Source: an uncultured Acetatifactor sp. (GTDB lineage Bacteria > Bacillota > Clostridia > Lachnospirales > Lachnospiraceae). Taken from it: a stretch of DNA of 64,000 bases. The stretch lies in the NCBI GenBank assembly GCA_947624245.1, contig CANQJL010000007.1, positions 31,186 to 95,185 of the forward strand. Reading direction: 5' to 3'. A program made the translations under genes and the position numbers. This document shows, one piece after another, positions 19,465-41,949 of the stretch; position 1 is the stretch's first letter, and every line of letters starts with the position of its first letter. The notes under the pieces were generated by a model, which was not told where the DNA came from, did no database searches, and was given only the letters and a program-made list of their open reading frames with translations.

Positions 19465-19494
19465 TTGACGAGATTTCCTCGGGGGGGGTAGAAT
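19465..19494 (+). promoter_or_regulatory. Putative promoter P1: TTGACG-N18(with G8)-TAGAAT
   Basis: ttgacg agatttcctcgggggggg tagaat; homopolymer G8 at 19481-19488 occupies the spacer up to the -10. Confidence 0.7.
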
Positions 19495-19530: not shown

Positions 19531-19558
19531 TTGACGGAGCTGTTCGGGGGGGTAGAAT
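19531..19558 (+). promoter_or_regulatory. Putative promoter P2: TTGACG-N16(with G7)-TAGAAT
   Basis: ttgacg gagctgttcggggggg tagaat; near-duplicate of P1 66 nt downstream; G7 at 19546-19552. Confidence 0.7.
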
Positions 19559-26492: not shown

Positions 26493-28391
26493 ATGGCTGA
26501 TATTCAGTGGCTCGTAAATCGCTTACGGGCGATGGACATATCTGAAATTATCTGGCGTCTTTCGCAGAGAGTCATTCGCGGGAAAGAAAAAAGACAGTTT
26601 AAATTACACAAAACATCTGTGACAGAATTTTTATTCAATAAAAAATTGAATTATCTTGTGATAGATTCGCGGAAGTTACAGCTAAACCTGAAAAATCAAG
26701 GATTCAGGTTGACAACAGATGTCCCTCTTTTGGGTGAATATGATTACAAAACATACAAGAAACAGTGGCATTTGGGTTTTCAGACAGAGAATACATGGCC
26801 ATTGGTATTCAGTCCCTCGCTTAAATATAAGCAGCGCGATGATATAGGTGACGCGCGGACAAACTGGGAGCTTAACAGGCATTTTCAGTTTGCACTGTTG
26901 GCAAAAAATTATGCGGCGAGTCGAGATGTAAAATATCTGAATGAGTTTACTGAGCTGTTTGAAGACTGGAATGAAAAGAACCCATTTTTATGGGGAATAT
27001 CGTGGACAAGCGTAATGGAAATCGCCATTCGATGCAGCAATTGGTGTTATTCCTATTGCTTCTTAAAATCGACAGATGCGCCAAAGGAGTTGCTTGATAA
27101 ACTTCAAACCGGCATTCTGAATATGACCGACTACATCACAAAGCATTATTCGCGGTATTCATCCGCGAATAATCATCTGATTGTTGAGGCTTACGCAATC
27201 GGACAAACCGGAATCCTGTGTGATCATCAGCCGTGGATTAAGCTGGCTGTTGATATTCTGATAAGAGAACTGCCGTTGCAGAACTATTCTGACGGAGTTA
27301 ATAAGGAGTTGTCTTTACATTACCAGTCTTTTTATATGGAAGCCATGGGGCTGATGATGCGGCTGCTTGTCAAAAACGGGTACAGCGTTCCTGATACGTG
27401 GACCCCAATGCTTGAAAAGATGTGCACATATGTTGCAGACTGCATGGGGGATCATGGTGAGGCGGTCGTCTTCGGAGATGACGATAAAGGAAAAATTCTG
27501 GATCTGCAGGGAGGAATAGAAAATCACTATCAATATATACTTGGATTGCTTAGCGTTATGCTTGACAGGCAGTATACCGACTTAAGCAAGTTGAACTGCG
27601 AGAATCTTACCTGGCTTTTTAGCGAAGAAGAGTTGAGTGCGGCACGAAAGAAGCCATTGTATCGACCTCCGCTTTCTGCCTGCTATAAAGAGGGAGGGAA
27701 TACGATTCTTCGCAGCAAAGACAGAAGAATTCTGATAGGAGTCGATCATGCTGCGCTCGGGTTTGGGAGTATCGCTGCTCACGGCCATGCTGACGCTTTG
27801 AGCTTTCAGATGTTTGTCGATGGGGAGCCGATATTTGTTGACCCTGGGACCTACATATACCACTGTGATCTTAATGCAAGAAACGCTTTCCGAAAGACTG
27901 TGAACCATAATACGGTCACGGTCGAAGGAAAAGACCAATCTGAAATGCTGGGGGCTTTTTTGTGGGGGAAGCGTGCGGAGTGCAAGCTTATAGATTTTAA
28001 AAATACATCGAATAAAACAATTCTTGTGGCAAAGCAGGACGGATATCGGCCTATTATCCACAGAAGGATGTTTGAGTTTGACGGAAACAGAAAACTGCGC
28101 ATTACAGACAGATTATCGGCGGCCTGTAATTATTCATTGACGTTTATGCTTTCGCCGAACACAACAGCGCAGATTGAAAATAATACGGTTTTGATTTCAG
28201 CGGGAGTGTGCTCCTGCAAAATGGAATTTGAAAATAAAGTAGATTTTGAAATATCCACGCGAGACGCCGCTTTTTCAGAGCAATACGGAGTGCAAAATAG
28301 CACAACTGCAGTAAGCGTCAGATCTCAGGGCATAGGAATGATATCGAAAATAACTGTTTGGGAGAACCCTCATGAATATAGCTGCGATTAA
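26493..28391 (+). CDS. Heparinase II/III family / alginate lyase-like protein
   Basis: YSSANNHLIVEAYAI, FGSIAAHGHADALSFQMFVDGEPIFVDPGTYIYHCDLNARNAFRKTVNHNTVTVEGKDQ. Confidence 0.9.
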   Translation: MADIQWLVNRLRAMDISEIIWRLSQRVIRGKEKRQFKLHKTSVTEFLFNKKLNYLVIDSRKLQLNLKNQGFRLTTDVPLLGEYDYKTYKKQWHLGFQTENTWPLVFSPSLKYKQRDDIGDARTNWELNRHFQFALLAKNYAASRDVKYLNEFTELFEDWNEKNPFLWGISWTSVMEIAIRCSNWCYSYCFLKSTDAPKELLDKLQTGILNMTDYITKHYSRYSSANNHLIVEAYAIGQTGILCDHQPWIKLAVDILIRELPLQNYSDGVNKELSLHYQSFYMEAMGLMMRLLVKNGYSVPDTWTPMLEKMCTYVADCMGDHGEAVVFGDDDKGKILDLQGGIENHYQYILGLLSVMLDRQYTDLSKLNCENLTWLFSEEELSAARKKPLYRPPLSACYKEGGNTILRSKDRRILIGVDHAALGFGSIAAHGHADALSFQMFVDGEPIFVDPGTYIYHCDLNARNAFRKTVNHNTVTVEGKDQSEMLGAFLWGKRAECKLIDFKNTSNKTILVAKQDGYRPIIHRRMFEFDGNRKLRITDRLSAACNYSLTFMLSPNTTAQIENNTVLISAGVCSCKMEFENKVDFEISTRDAAFSEQYGVQNSTTAVSVRSQGIGMISKITVWENPHEYSCD

Positions 28392-29769
28392 AAAGCTAAA
28401 TGAAAATATGCCTTATTGGATGAAAAGGCCGTTTGCCCATATAATCCGCAATCGACTGATTGAAAATAAGGTTTTTCTAAAACAGTATGAGCTGCTTGAG
28501 CAGGCAGATGGCATGACTGAGCAGGAAAAAATCAAATTGCAACTGGATAATTTGAAGAATGTTCTTGTTCATGCGTATCAACACACGGTTTATTACAGGG
28601 AAATAATGGACAGCATCGGCTTCAACCCTGAATCGGTAACCGCTCCTGAAGATTTAAAAAAGCTGCCGGTACTGACAAAAGAATTGCTTAAAGAAAATTA
28701 CGAGAAGCTTTTAGCGGACGATATAGATAATTTTTATGATGTGAGAACCGGCGGAACAACGGGGGAACCTATCCACGTTCTTATGGAAAGAGATGCAATA
28801 TATCGTGAGTGGGCGTTTACATATCACTATTGGAGCAAATTTGGGTATGATTATCGGACAAGCAAATTAGCCACTTTACGTGGGGTTGATCTGCATGGAA
28901 GGCTTTATGAAATCAATCCCTTGTATCAGGAAATAAGGCTGAATGTTTTCAAGCTTAACAGGGACAACATAAAAGAATATATTCAGAGAATAGACGGATA
29001 TGGAGCGGATTTTGTCTATGGCTATCCCTCGGCGGTTTATAATCTTTGCCGCTTGGCTCAAGAAGTTGGCATAAAGCTTGAGCATAGGTTCAAGGCGGCG
29101 CTACTGATTTCGGAAAATCTGTATAATTTTCAGGAAGCGGAGATTCGCAGTGTTCTGGCGTGCCCTATCGCAATTTTTTACGGACACTCAGAAAGAGCCG
29201 TTTTTGCCGAAAGGTACAATAAAGGGTATGTCTTTCAGTCGCTGTACGGGGTTACGGAAATAAACGATGCGGGCAATCCTGTCGTAACGGGATTTGTCAA
29301 TGGAAAAATTCCGTTAATTCGTTATCTGGTAGATGATTATATTGAACCGGTCAACGGCAGAGAAATGAACATTATCGGGCATAGGGGGACAGACATCTTA
29401 ATCGGCAGAAATGGTGAGCAGATATCTGCCGCTGCCATTAATTTTCATGATGATACTTTTGCGGAAATTAAAAGCTTTCAGTTCGTTCAGGATACTCCAG
29501 GGAAGTGCATTTTATATGTGGTACCGGCTGCAGGCAGATTATCAGATAAGGATTATAGACGCATTACAGACAGAGTATCGGGAAAACTGCAGAATGCATT
29601 GCTGTGTAAGGTAGAACAGAGCAATGATATTGTTTTGACAGAGCGGGGAAAATACAAGATGGTGATACAAAACTGTAAAGAAGGCCCTAAGATCTTTTCG
29701 GGGGGGGTAAAACATAGCGGCAAGACAATCGCAGGCTGCACATTCTGTGAAAGGGAGGTGGCAGCTTGA
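28372..29769 (+). CDS. CapK / phenylacetate-CoA ligase-like family protein
   Basis: TGGTTGEPIHVLMERDA, FVYGYPSAVYNLCRL, FYGHSERAVFAERYNKGYVFQSLYGVTEI; G8 tract near 3' end. Confidence 0.88.
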   Translation: MNIAAIKKLNENMPYWMKRPFAHIIRNRLIENKVFLKQYELLEQADGMTEQEKIKLQLDNLKNVLVHAYQHTVYYREIMDSIGFNPESVTAPEDLKKLPVLTKELLKENYEKLLADDIDNFYDVRTGGTTGEPIHVLMERDAIYREWAFTYHYWSKFGYDYRTSKLATLRGVDLHGRLYEINPLYQEIRLNVFKLNRDNIKEYIQRIDGYGADFVYGYPSAVYNLCRLAQEVGIKLEHRFKAALLISENLYNFQEAEIRSVLACPIAIFYGHSERAVFAERYNKGYVFQSLYGVTEINDAGNPVVTGFVNGKIPLIRYLVDDYIEPVNGREMNIIGHRGTDILIGRNGEQISAAAINFHDDTFAEIKSFQFVQDTPGKCILYVVPAAGRLSDKDYRRITDRVSGKLQNALLCKVEQSNDIVLTERGKYKMVIQNCKEGPKIFSGGVKHSGKTIAGCTFCEREVAA

Positions 29770-31112
29770 ACATAACAGTCGCATTGAAAATAATTTATGA
29801 GAAGCTTCCTGAAACAGTAAAAGTCGTTTTTGCACCGATTATCCGAAGAAGTATGATTAGGAATAAAGTTTTCGTAGATCAGTACGCTGAATTGATAAGA
29901 GCAGACAATCTGGGAAATAGTGAATTAAGCGCTCTTCAATTCGAAAAGCTAAAAGAAATCTGTGTTTTTGCATATGAAAATACAAGATATTATCGTGATT
30001 TGTTTGATAATAATGGCTTTGACTGTTATAAATTTAGTTCATTTTCTGAATTTAAACAGAAAGTGCCAATTTTGACAAAAGATACTTTACTTGATAATTA
30101 CGATGATATCAATGCTCAAAGCATTCATGATTTCTATCCTGCCAGTACTGGAGGTTCTACAGGGAAAAGGGTTGTAATAAATAATGCACCTGATTGTTTT
30201 TATCGTGAGAATGCTTTTTTGTGCCATCACTATTTAAAGTTTGGAGACTATAATTACAAAAGGAGCAAAGTTGCTTATTTTGGTGGGTTAGGGTCGAGCT
30301 TGATTTCTGCAAGCCCTCTTTATAACATGATGAGGTATAACTCAAAACTAATTAATAGGGACACGGTCGGCAAAGTGATAAAAAGCTTGAATAAATTTAG
30401 ACCAGATTTTATACAAGGGCTGCCTTCTGCAATTTATTTTTTTTGTAAGTTGCTGAATCAAAATTCCGATAAACTTGAGTTCCGATTAAAAGGTGTGATA
30501 TTTGCTTCAGAAAATATTTATGAGAATCAACGTAGATTTATTGAAAATATACTTCATTGTAAGTCACTTGCTCATTATGGTCATACTGAAAGAGTTGTTT
30601 TCGCGGAAGAAAATACTGATGCTGTTGGAAGACCGCAATATAAATTTAACAAGCTTTATGGTTATACAGAGATTGATTCGAACGATGGAACGATAATAGG
30701 TACAGGATTTATCAATCCTAGAATGCCTCTTATCAGATATAAAACAGATGATTATGCAGAAAGATTAGATAATGGATTGTACCATATAGAGGGTCATAGG
30801 ACGGCTGCAATGGTTGGAAAAAACGGAGAACATATATCGGCAGCTTCATTTGCTCACATGGATGAAGTATTTGATTGTATGGAAAGATTTCAGTTTGTAC
30901 AGAATGAGCCTGGAGTTGTAGATTTAAATATTATTCCAAAACAAGATTTGAATCAAAATATTATGAAGAGAATACAAAAATCTCTTGACTCAAAATTCAT
31001 GGGAAATATGACCGTAGAAATCCATGTAGTTGATGAAATTCAATTAAGTGCACGTGGAAAATATGCTCTCTTGATACAGAATATAAAAGAAGAGTCGGAA
31101 TATCAGCATTAA
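29766..31112 (+). CDS. Second CapK-like family protein (paralog of upstream gene)
   Basis: STGGSTGKRVVINN, FIQGLPSAIYFFCKL, YGHTERVVFAEEN...FNKLYGYTEID; overlaps upstream stop. Confidence 0.87.
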   Translation: MNITVALKIIYEKLPETVKVVFAPIIRRSMIRNKVFVDQYAELIRADNLGNSELSALQFEKLKEICVFAYENTRYYRDLFDNNGFDCYKFSSFSEFKQKVPILTKDTLLDNYDDINAQSIHDFYPASTGGSTGKRVVINNAPDCFYRENAFLCHHYLKFGDYNYKRSKVAYFGGLGSSLISASPLYNMMRYNSKLINRDTVGKVIKSLNKFRPDFIQGLPSAIYFFCKLLNQNSDKLEFRLKGVIFASENIYENQRRFIENILHCKSLAHYGHTERVVFAEENTDAVGRPQYKFNKLYGYTEIDSNDGTIIGTGFINPRMPLIRYKTDDYAERLDNGLYHIEGHRTAAMVGKNGEHISAASFAHMDEVFDCMERFQFVQNEPGVVDLNIIPKQDLNQNIMKRIQKSLDSKFMGNMTVEIHVVDEIQLSARGKYALLIQNIKEESEYQH

Positions 31113-38060: not shown

Positions 38061-38129
38061 GACTCAAGTAGCATGAGAATAAGCCATGCACTTTTGACAC
38101 GAACTACTATACACAGGGAGTTGAATAAA

Positions 38130-38603
38130 ATGGATGCTTATAAGCTGTATAAGGCAGAACGATGGTTGTACATGCACCATGTTCCACTTTTGCCAAAATT
38201 GATCAAGGGGCTGATTTATCTCTTGCATAGTTCGTCTATCCCGTATGAGGCTCAGATTGGGGAGCACTGCAAGTTCCTTTATGGCGGACTGGGCTGCGTA
38301 ATCGGCAAAGAGACTGTTATTGGAGATCATGTGATTATCGGAACCAATGTACTCACAGGTGGCCGCTCCAATAAGCCCGGTATGCCTATTATTGGCAGCA
38401 ATGTTTATATCGCAACAGGGGCTAAGATCTTGGGTAATATTACTATTGCTGATAATGTTATTATTGGTGCCAACGCTGTAGTTATCCACGATGTACCGTC
38501 CAATTGTTCGTGCGGGGGGGTACCGGCTCATATCCTGAAAGAAAATATCGATGTAACGCAATATTGCAGCCTGAACCGATATGGAAAAAATGCGGCTGAA
38601 TAA
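38130..38603 (+). CDS. Serine O-acetyltransferase-like left-handed beta-helix acyltransferase
   Basis: Hexapeptide repeats IGEHCKFLYGGLGCVIGKETVIGDHVIIGTNVLTGG...IGSNVYIATGAKILGNITIADNVIIGANAVVIHDVPSN. Confidence 0.85.
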   Translation: MDAYKLYKAERWLYMHHVPLLPKLIKGLIYLLHSSSIPYEAQIGEHCKFLYGGLGCVIGKETVIGDHVIIGTNVLTGGRSNKPGMPIIGSNVYIATGAKILGNITIADNVIIGANAVVIHDVPSNCSCGGVPAHILKENIDVTQYCSLNRYGKNAAE

Positions 38604-38665: not shown

Positions 38666-39460
38666 ATGATTTACTTTTTGATCCCCTTAATGAGCAAGAA
38701 GGTGGCAAAAGATTGGGATACAGTTTCAATGTTATTCAATCGTACGCTTTGGAGCTGTTACAATCAAACGGATCCGGATTTTAAAATTTTGGTCGCTTGC
38801 CATGAGATCCCTGAGCTGATAAAAAAATACGATAGACGCGTAGAGTTTCTACAGGTCAGCGAGGAGAATGCTCCTATCCCCACCACGCAGCATGAGAAAA
38901 TGGTCGATAAAGGATATAAGACTCACACATTGGCCATACGGCTGCGGGAGTTGGGCGGTGGCTATGCGATGGTAGTGGATGCAGATGACTTGGTCAGCAA
39001 TCGCCTAGCGGCGTTCGTCAAGCAGCACCCCAACGAGAATGGATTTTACATAAAGACCGGGTATGTTTACTTTGTCGGCGACGATTACATGAAGGTGATG
39101 CCCAAGTTCGCCAGCAGCACCTGCTGTATAGTCAAATATTCTCCGCAGGATCTGCCGTCAAATTACCCGGCAGTTATGACGGATAATTGCGATGATAATG
39201 AATGGATCATCCGCAAGCGGCATGGCGGTATCGTCCCGGCATGTGCGGCACTCGGCAGACCGTTGAAGCCGCTGCCGTTCAAGGGCGCCGTCTATGTTAT
39301 GGGCGGCGGGGAAAACCATTCTATGAACGGGAAAAACAGTAAATATCAAACACGTAAGAGAGAAATAGTACAAATGTTTATGATGAAGAAAAAAATTGCG
39401 GGGGGGTACAGGAAGAGTTCTCAATCGACTGGCTGTAATCCCCTGCCTTTTGTACGGTAG
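38666..39460 (+). CDS. Glycosyltransferase (rhamnosyltransferase-like family), C-terminus frameshifted relative to paralog
   Basis: Aligns with 39472..40233 (RTLWSCYNQTDPDFKILVACHEIPELI; VVDADDLVSNRLAAFV); frame diverges from the paralog at the G7 tract 39400-39406. Confidence 0.82.
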   Translation: MIYFLIPLMSKKVAKDWDTVSMLFNRTLWSCYNQTDPDFKILVACHEIPELIKKYDRRVEFLQVSEENAPIPTTQHEKMVDKGYKTHTLAIRLRELGGGYAMVVDADDLVSNRLAAFVKQHPNENGFYIKTGYVYFVGDDYMKVMPKFASSTCCIVKYSPQDLPSNYPAVMTDNCDDNEWIIRKRHGGIVPACAALGRPLKPLPFKGAVYVMGGGENHSMNGKNSKYQTRKREIVQMFMMKKKIAGGYRKSSQSTGCNPLPFVR

Positions 39461-39471
39461 GGGGGCAAGGA

Positions 39472-40233
39472 ATGATTTATTTTGGCATCCCCCTCCGCAG
39501 CAAGGCTGTATCCAACGATTGGGAAAAAGTCAGTCTTTATTTTAATAGAACCTTGTGGTCTGTTTACAATCAAACCGCCCCGGAATTTCGGATTATTGTG
39601 GCATGTCACGATATTCCGGAGCTTGTACATCAATATGATGAGCGGGTCGAATTTATTCAGGTGGCTGCACCCATCCCTGCGACGAAAGAAGAAATGATGA
39701 TAGACAAAGGGTATAAGGTGCACACTATTGCCATGCGGATACGTGAATACGGCGGTGGTTTTACAATGATGGTAGATGCAGACGATATTCAGAGTAATCG
39801 GATTGCTGCGTATGTAAATGCACACTCTGACGCAAATGGCTTTGTTGCACATAATGGATATTATTATCATGTTGGAGACTCATTTATTAAGCTGGGACAT
39901 AAGTTTCCAAATGGGAGTTCTACCATAGTTAAATATTCTGTTGAGGATTTACCGGAAGCCCACTATCCAACCATGGTGCCAAGTATGAATTCCAATCCGC
40001 ATATTGTGCGCAAACAGCATGGCGATATACCTCGAATTTGCGCAGAGTTAGGTCGTCCGTTGGAGCCGTTGCCCTTTCCGGCAAGCATCTATGTGCGGGA
40101 GACTGGCGACAACCATTCTCTTATGGGAAAAAATGAGTCCCGATGGCGTGTGTTAGAGCAGAAACTAATGCCTAAAATCTACTTGAATCGGAATAACAAA
40201 ATATGCAAGGAGTTTTCCGTAGATTGGTTCTGA
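39472..40233 (+). CDS. Glycosyltransferase, tandem paralog of upstream gene
   Basis: RTLWSVYNQTAPEFRIIVACHDIPELVHQYDERVEFIQV; MVDADDIQSNRIAAYVNAH; ends KICKEFSVDWF. Confidence 0.85.
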   Translation: MIYFGIPLRSKAVSNDWEKVSLYFNRTLWSVYNQTAPEFRIIVACHDIPELVHQYDERVEFIQVAAPIPATKEEMMIDKGYKVHTIAMRIREYGGGFTMMVDADDIQSNRIAAYVNAHSDANGFVAHNGYYYHVGDSFIKLGHKFPNGSSTIVKYSVEDLPEAHYPTMVPSMNSNPHIVRKQHGDIPRICAELGRPLEPLPFPASIYVRETGDNHSLMGKNESRWRVLEQKLMPKIYLNRNNKICKEFSVDWF

Positions 40234-40267: not shown

Positions 40268-40425
40268 ATGAAAAGTCAAGTTTTTATTAGCAAAAAATTT
40301 CTTTTTTGTATCGGTGGTAAAACAGATAAAAATGAATCGCGTTGGCGGGTATTGGAGCGGACACTGATGCTAGGCTCTATATGAACGGAAAAATATGTAG
40401 TGAATTTTTAGTAGAAGGGATGTGA
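40268..40425 (+). pseudogene. 3' remnant of a third copy of the tandem glycosyltransferase
   Basis: Encodes DKNESRWRVLERTLM then, after a frameshift, RLYMNGKICSEFLVEGM*, matching the paralog end KNESRWRVLEQKLMPKIYLNRNNKICKEFSVDWF. Confidence 0.8.
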
Positions 40426-40429
40426 TTTT

Positions 40430-41554
40430 TTGGAAAAGAAGAGAGTATTAATGATAGATCATATGTTGCCAGGCAATACCTATACGATGGAGCTTGTTGA
40501 TAAATTAAAAAAGTACGTGGATCTTACGGTATTATGTAGCAGGGATTGTAAGACAAAGATTCAAGGGGTTATAATCAAACCGAAATTATATACGGGGGGC
40601 GCTGGAAAAGCAATATCGATGCTTCTTTATCTGCATGCGCTTCTTGTTACAATTAGAGAACTGCTTTTTGGAAACTACGATGCCATACATATTCAAACGT
40701 TTAAAGCGTACAAATATGAAATACCCATTTATTCCATCTGCAAAGCCCCCAAATGTGTACTATTGTGTACGGTTCACAATGTATTGCCCAGAGAGACAAA
40801 AAATGAGTTATGGAGCGGCGACGGGCAAGAATTTTCAGAATTTTACGCAAAGTGTGATAAATTAATTGTTCACAATGAGAACAGCAAAAGAATGCTTATC
40901 GAAAAATGGGGTATTGAAGAAAACAAAATTCATGTCATACCCCATGGAGTCTATTGCTCATTTTTAAATGAGAAAAGCGAAAGTTTATATGTAAGGGAAA
41001 AGACTTTTCTGATCTTTGGTACAATCAGAGAATATAAGGGTATCGATTTGCTTATAAAGGCGATTGCCTTACTTCCGGAAAATATCAAAGAAAACATGAC
41101 TTTTATAATTGCAGGTAAGCAGAATTTTCAATCAGATAATACAGATTATGAAGGAATGATAAAGAAATTCAATTTATCGTCCCAAGTACAATTTCTTAAT
41201 AGGCGAATTGAAGACAGTGAATTACCTGAATTGTTTAAAAAAGCAGATGCATGTATTTTCCCATATAGAGCTATATCGGGAAGCGGTGCTCTTTTAATGG
41301 CATATTCGTTTGGTACGCCAGTGATAGCAAGTGATATTCCTACGTTTGTAGAAGAAACAGACGGCGGAAAAACAGGTTTACTTTTTCAGGCACTGAATCC
41401 AAAGGCGCTTGCAGAGGCAATAGAGCGTTTTTATAATATGGAACCCAATCAGATTGAAGAATATAAAAAAAATATTCATTTACTGGTTTCCAATAAATAT
41501 AATTGGGAAAATTCTGCAAAATTAACAGCTGAATTATATGGAGGCTTTCAGTGA
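40430..41554 (+). CDS. Glycosyltransferase family 4 protein
   Basis: IHVIPHGVYCSF, FLIFGTIREYKGIDLLIKAIALL, ACIFPYRAISGSGALLMAYSFGTPVIASDIPTFVEE. Confidence 0.9.
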   Translation: MEKKRVLMIDHMLPGNTYTMELVDKLKKYVDLTVLCSRDCKTKIQGVIIKPKLYTGGAGKAISMLLYLHALLVTIRELLFGNYDAIHIQTFKAYKYEIPIYSICKAPKCVLLCTVHNVLPRETKNELWSGDGQEFSEFYAKCDKLIVHNENSKRMLIEKWGIEENKIHVIPHGVYCSFLNEKSESLYVREKTFLIFGTIREYKGIDLLIKAIALLPENIKENMTFIIAGKQNFQSDNTDYEGMIKKFNLSSQVQFLNRRIEDSELPELFKKADACIFPYRAISGSGALLMAYSFGTPVIASDIPTFVEETDGGKTGLLFQALNPKALAEAIERFYNMEPNQIEEYKKNIHLLVSNKYNWENSAKLTAELYGGFQ

Positions 41555-41949
41555 GCGAGCATGATCAGGAGCATAATTTAACCGACAGCGCATCTGTTAT
41601 TATAATAGATTTTAACTCCGCAGGAAAGACATTGAAGTATATTAAAGATTTTAGGAAATTTTCTCGTCTTAGACTTCCGCATTTTGTTATTGTTGATAAC
41701 TCGTGCAATCCTGAAAATTTAAACATTCTGCTGGAAGGAAATTTCAGGGAAGAAGTGACAGACTTAAATGAAGGCTTATACTGGGATAAAACAAATCAAG
41801 TGGTTGTATATGCAGCAAAATCAAACGAGGGTTTTGCCAAAGGAAATAATATTGGCTTTCATATAGCAAAAAAATTGTATAATGATTCGATTGCTTTATT
41901 GATGATGAAAATTGAATGCGAAGATACTTTGAATGTTGAGGTGGCCTGA
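41551..41949 (+). pseudogene. Truncated family 2 glycosyltransferase N-terminus
   Basis: SVIIIDFNSAGKTLKYI, HFVIVDNSCNPEN, SNEGFAKGNNIGFHIAKK resembles GT2, but ORF ends (ALLMMKIECEDTLNVEVA*) where the DxD region is expected. Confidence 0.65.

Follow-up and report, generated by a model that had tools for sequence, protein, structure and literature searches.

A candidate poly-G contingency locus in a glycosyltransferase-like gene of an uncultured Acetatifactor species

Slipped-strand variation at poly-G tracts is known in Campylobacter, Neisseria and Bifidobacterium. The best-known examples of surface phase variation in gut commensals involve invertible DNA and the G-tracts of Bifidobacterium pilus genes. 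Here, we analyse a putative glycosyltransferase gene (hereafter gene 1) with a G7 tract, located in a stretch of 64,000 nucleotides from an uncultured Acetatifactor sp. (hereafter the window), and compare it with the closest described systems. In Campylobacter jejuni, cgtB and wlaN are poly-G phase-variable glycosyltransferase genes (PMC6437147, PMC7142995). As in gene 1, a G tract in a surface-glycan glycosyltransferase gene shifts the frame, and the enzyme is truncated. The variation has been experimentally shown in Campylobacter, whereas at gene 1 it is putative, and the tract lies near the 3' end, where it would only swap the tail. The pilus genes of Bifidobacterium breve carry G-tracts that undergo replication slippage, and their length plasticity was demonstrated by deep sequencing (PMC9187656). 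This system is alike in that a Gram-positive gut commensal has a surface gene divided into two ORFs by an intragenic G tract, but these are pilus genes, not polysaccharide genes, in a different phylum. The serotype-modifying gtr operons of Salmonella/P22 are also phase-variable (PMC2909390). They modify the surface polysaccharide through a glycosyltransferase system, but the switch depends on DNA methylation, not on tract length. A 2026 paper on Mediterraneibacter gnavus reported that capsule promoter expression is not bimodal, and did not address coding tracts (PMC13121745). For the polysaccharide genes of Lachnospiraceae or Clostridia, our literature search found no report of phase variation at poly-G tracts.

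Gene 1 is out of its ancestral frame at a G7 tract

Gene 1 belongs to a polysaccharide cluster of the window. The cluster includes glycosyltransferases, a hexapeptide acetyltransferase, a WavE-type protein and a gene whose sequence is UDP-sugar dehydrogenase-like. Gene 1 is followed by an intact tandem paralog (gene 2) and by the remnant of a third copy (table 1). Gene 1 is out of its ancestral frame at the G7 tract. In the present frame it ends in KKKIAGG-YRKSSQSTGCNPLPFVR and a stop, while in the -1 frame past the tract (one more base read) it ends in VQEEFSIDWL and a stop. The swap changes the C-terminal 16 residues only. The frameshift lies exactly where the original prediction had placed it, and both tails were given correctly. 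The resemblance that it saw between the restored tail and the end of the paralog is also real: gene 2 ends in NNKICKEFSVDWF and a stop (KEFSVDWF), i.e. EFSVDWF against EFSIDWL. That both frames stop at the same place is right for the length of the protein, but not for the position (39436-39438 in the ancestral frame, 39458-39460 in the present one).

Table 1. Features around gene 1 in the window, and G tracts of the split genes found elsewhere in the genome.
Feature	Position	Strand	Remarks
Hexapeptide acetyltransferase	38073..38603	+	In-frame G7 tract 38514-38520 at conserved GGxPA motif
Putative glycosyltransferase gene 1, present frame	38666..39460	+	GT-A-like, DxD at D105/D107, 264 aa, altered C-terminus
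G7 tract, frameshift site	39400..39406	+	
Ancestral C-terminal frame, VQEEFSIDWL and stop	39406..39438	+	Synonymous third-base differences versus L003; EFSxDW in 39472..40233 and L139
Extra coding stretch, PLPFVR and stop	39439..39460	+	Present frame only; homologs without it
Predicted hairpin CCCCUGCC-N8-GGUAGGGG, between genes 1 and 2	39440..39463	+	Overlaps likely gene 2 ribosome-binding region
Tandem paralog, putative glycosyltransferase gene 2, intact	39472..40233	+	55% identity to gene 1; ends EFSVDWF
Decayed 3' remnant of third tandem copy	40271..40426	+	NESRWRVLERTLM ... frameshift ... NGKICSEFLVEGM and stop
Split gene tract	L005 2347		G8
Split gene tract	L006 7604		G8
Split gene tract	L011 2297		G7
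Split gene tract	L027 6070		G8
Split gene tract	L027 7266		G7

Two homologs indicate which frame is ancestral. The one in Clostridium transplantifaecale (L003) is 75% identical to gene 1 over the part that precedes the tract, and sits downstream of the orthologous hexapeptide acetyltransferase. It ends in KIKGKLKREFSIDWL and a stop (KLKREFSIDWL), and its protein has the length of gene 1 in the ancestral frame. The other, from another family of the order (L139), is 50% identical and ends in KLRKEFSIDWM and a stop. Since the first ends alike at equal length, and the second has a matching end, the tail in the alternative frame is not a product of chance. Four of the seven EFSIDWL codons differ between gene 1 and L003. 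Each difference falls on the third base and is synonymous in the ancestral frame. Hence, this frame was selected at the protein level until recently, and the shift in gene 1 is recent or reversible. The comparison of G7 and G8 among orthologs proposed earlier found neither state, because both homologs are in frame and lack a G tract near the C-terminus. It follows that the site is not conserved. No ortholog of gene 1 was found in other members of the genus (138 genomes searched), nor in the family sample apart from the window's own genome. Two traits of contingency loci are present at gene 1: a simple-sequence tract lies inside the coding sequence exactly where the frame breaks, and the frame beyond it encodes a conserved product kept by selection.

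The name glycosyltransferase is tentative, being drawn from the DxD motif, the neighbourhood and a sub-threshold match to Rhamno_transf (PF11316). This match was obtained with the L003 ortholog (E = 0.0043, 17 bits, below the curated cut-off of 23); the window copies had none, and no Pfam family reached its curated cut-off for gene 1 or gene 2. Membership in the GT-A type is therefore not backed by a match above the cut-off. A structure model of the L003 ortholog had a mean pLDDT of 46, and its quality was insufficient for searching folds or judging the tail. Unrelated GT2-like genes that neighbour the homologs also have EFSIDWL-like ends (HYSIDWENL at L003 5787-6686, YYKFDWTNLK at L139 2262-3164), which suggests a C-terminal signal common to the glycosyltransferases of these two clusters.

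Split genes at G tracts in the genome and its relatives

We surveyed every tract of at least seven Gs in the 2.53 Mb of the genome (62 overlapping matches, corresponding to about 53 tracts). Five further genes are split at a G7 or G8 tract, with the continuation in another frame (table 1). All five encode glycan-type polytopic membrane proteins, of which one is a DUF6044 protein, two are DUF6056 proteins and two are GT-C-like. For three of them, the half-genes match adjacent parts of one Pfam profile (positions 11-306 and 311-562 for DUF6044, 2-272 and 293-366 for the first DUF6056 gene, 7-231 and 262-439 for the second). The gene at L027 7266 has 238 codons, while its homologs, matched in 72 other genomes, are mostly single ORFs of about 600-700 aa. 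The L011 pair, which matches no family, was judged from open frames and membrane character only. DUF6044 occurs in 101 of the 138 genomes of the genus, mostly as one ORF of about 580-700 aa, and the genome of the window has two copies, one split at the tract and one intact. Other genomes have a few split or fragmentary copies (G109, G005, G011, G078, G099 and G103); in the three loci that were read (G109, G005 and G011), there is no tract of at least seven Gs at the split. Contingency loci should be several and concentrated in surface or glycan functions, and the five further splits follow this pattern, with modest statistics.

As controls, we took sense-coding runs preceded by 100 or more open codons, and scored them with a mechanical split signal that takes in some ordinary gene ends (L017 5360, for instance, was rejected as a split gene because an AcrB gene ends there and another gene comes next). 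The signal was given by three out of four G8 tracts and by two out of 64 A/T runs of 7-8 (Fisher exact test, p = 0.0008), and six of the about 18 identified tract-bearing glycan-type genes are shifted, against none of the identified non-glycan ones (p = 0.05), but these p-values are only descriptive because the gene classes were assigned, in part by eye, once the splits were known. About 25 coding G7 tracts elsewhere in the genome are in frame. These include all the tracts in identified non-glycan genes, which encode an AcrB-type pump, a histidine kinase, AraC-type response regulators, a xanthine/uracil permease, an ABC ATPase, a peptide-binding protein, a C39 peptidase and SUKH.

Relatives also have genes split at such tracts. 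In G700, which belongs to another family of the same order, the homolog of gene 1 is split at a G7 directly before the DxD (between RIRESGG and GGYTMMVDSDD). The polysaccharide cluster around it has two further tracts, of G8-G9. We read twenty tracts of at least nine Gs in congeners. At G9, an acyltransferase-3 gene (L118, both halves matching PF01757), a methyltransferase gene (L111) and a gene for an N6_N4_Mtase-type DNA methylase (L121, contig 120 of G036) are split, and the last conserved motif of a hexapeptide acetyltransferase is interrupted (L110); the remaining tracts are intergenic or in frame. If variable, the tract in the DNA methylase gene could switch methylation. The DUF6056 loci read in 30 relatives have no out-of-frame tract of at least seven Gs, i.e. 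tract positions are not conserved. The tracts of the relatives lead to the same conclusion, yet similar functional classes acquire them again and again.

The putative switch and its alternatives

We give a probability of about 0.6 to the reading in which the G7 of gene 1 is a slipped-strand poly-G contingency locus for surface-polysaccharide diversity. Gain or loss of a base by replication slippage would toggle the protein between the conserved tail ending in EFSIDWL and the unrelated one ending in YRKSSQSTGCNPLPFVR. The sequenced clone would be in the altered-tail phase, in which the activity of gene 1 is probably reduced or altered. The genome would hold at least six sites of this kind, and those other than gene 1 split genes for glycan-type polytopic membrane proteins. 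The likely outcome would be a cell population with differing surface glycans, which may bear on escape from phages and antibodies. The reversibility of the switch, its frequency, the functional loss that the swapped tail would cause and the phenotype are all inferred. Several points count against the contingency reading: seven Gs are short for a fast contingency locus, G7 tracts are not enriched in the window, and the L003 and L139 homologs lack the tract. Moreover, gene 1 may not undergo an on/off switch, because only its last 16 residues change.

The shift could also be an ordinary recent loss of function or a neutral indel: the homopolymer would have changed length once, the altered tail would have been fixed in the strain, and the copy could drift beside its paralog. 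The intact gene next downstream and the small part of the protein affected fit this scenario, as does the adjoining third copy, which is truly decayed and so indicates that decay is under way at the locus. Yet the alternative frame is unspoiled, the EFSIDWL changes being all synonymous, and isolated fixed indels, arising in genes unrelated to one another, do not readily explain five sister genes split at like tracts with long unspoiled downstream frames. We regard it as unlikely. A sequencing or assembly error is very unlikely, even if homopolymers are its classic site. Random errors would not select glycan genes while sparing the many coding G7 tracts that are in frame, including those of all the identified non-glycan genes, nor would they recur in the gene 1 homolog of another genus, and A/T runs of equal length give few split signals. 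The original prediction had left open phase variation and sequencing error. That interpretation is partly supported. The frameshift relative to the ancestral frame is well supported, and phase variation is now favoured over error because the G7/G8 frameshifts in the genome recur only in glycan-type genes and because G7-G9 splits recur in the glycan genes of relatives, including the homolog of gene 1.

It is highly improbable that the tract is a site of programmed recoding, where a -1 slip of the ribosome or of the RNA polymerase on G GGG GGG yields some product ending in EFSIDWL. The codons GCG GGG GGG do form a heptamer of the X XXY YYZ type in the right frame, and a -1 slip gives exactly VQEEFSIDWL and the stop. 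However, no stimulatory structure lies at the usual distance of 5-9 nt: a single hairpin is predicted, it begins about 33 nt past the tract, and the folding there is not significant (whole-fold z of -1.15). The orthologs in L003 and L139 are in frame without a slippery site. Finally, the sister genes require shifts in both directions, which fits drift in tract length, not one programmed frameshift.

If gene 1 is indeed a slipped-strand contingency locus, it may be part of a widespread and so far undescribed poly-G system in gut Clostridia, a generalization that we consider possible but tentative. The targets would include DUF6044, DUF6056, GT-C, acyltransferases, hexapeptide acetyltransferases, methyltransferases and possibly DNA methylases, and the family of gene 1 would have gained tracts independently, at positions differing between genera. 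Such switches in polysaccharide genes would make surface diversity simple, countable and readable in existing deep sequencing data, and apparent pseudogenes in polysaccharide clusters might be off-phase genes.

Other features of the window and of the genome

The hairpin between genes 1 and 2 raises a more speculative effect: the tract state may alter translational coupling to gene 2, since ribosomes in the present frame would read across the hairpin and terminate 11 nt upstream of the paralog ATG (33 nt for the ancestral frame). A G8 tract at 29700-29707 lies near the 3' end of the ORF 28372..29769. It may also switch a C-terminal tail, since the paralog 29766..31112 ends shortly past the shared GKY..IQN motif. 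The in-frame tract of the hexapeptide acetyltransferase upstream of gene 1 has no counterpart in the L003 ortholog, which has GGVPA without a G tract. An ORF at 41551-41949 (132 aa) resembles the N-terminus of a GT2 glycosyltransferase, has no Pfam match and is directly followed by the next gene; it is possibly a truncated gene. We rejected an over-representation of G tracts in the window, since the abundance of G7 is unremarkable (eight seven-mer matches against 9.65 expected in dinucleotide shuffles).

Some G7 tracts lie in promoter-like sites. Genome-wide, eleven sites match TTGAC(A/G)-N9-GGGGGGG-TAnnAT; sites of this kind in the window lie at 19465-19494 and 19531-19558. All eleven have exactly seven Gs and a spacer of exactly 16, although G5-G6 and different spacings would also have matched, and the reversed control pattern gave zero matches. 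A twelfth site, at 19465, has a G8 and a spacer of 18. We rejected the idea that these are rRNA promoters, as Rfam gave no rRNA and several of the genes downstream resemble lipoproteins or surface proteins. Rfam also matched a 'drum' RNA at L018 4318-4427 (88 bits).
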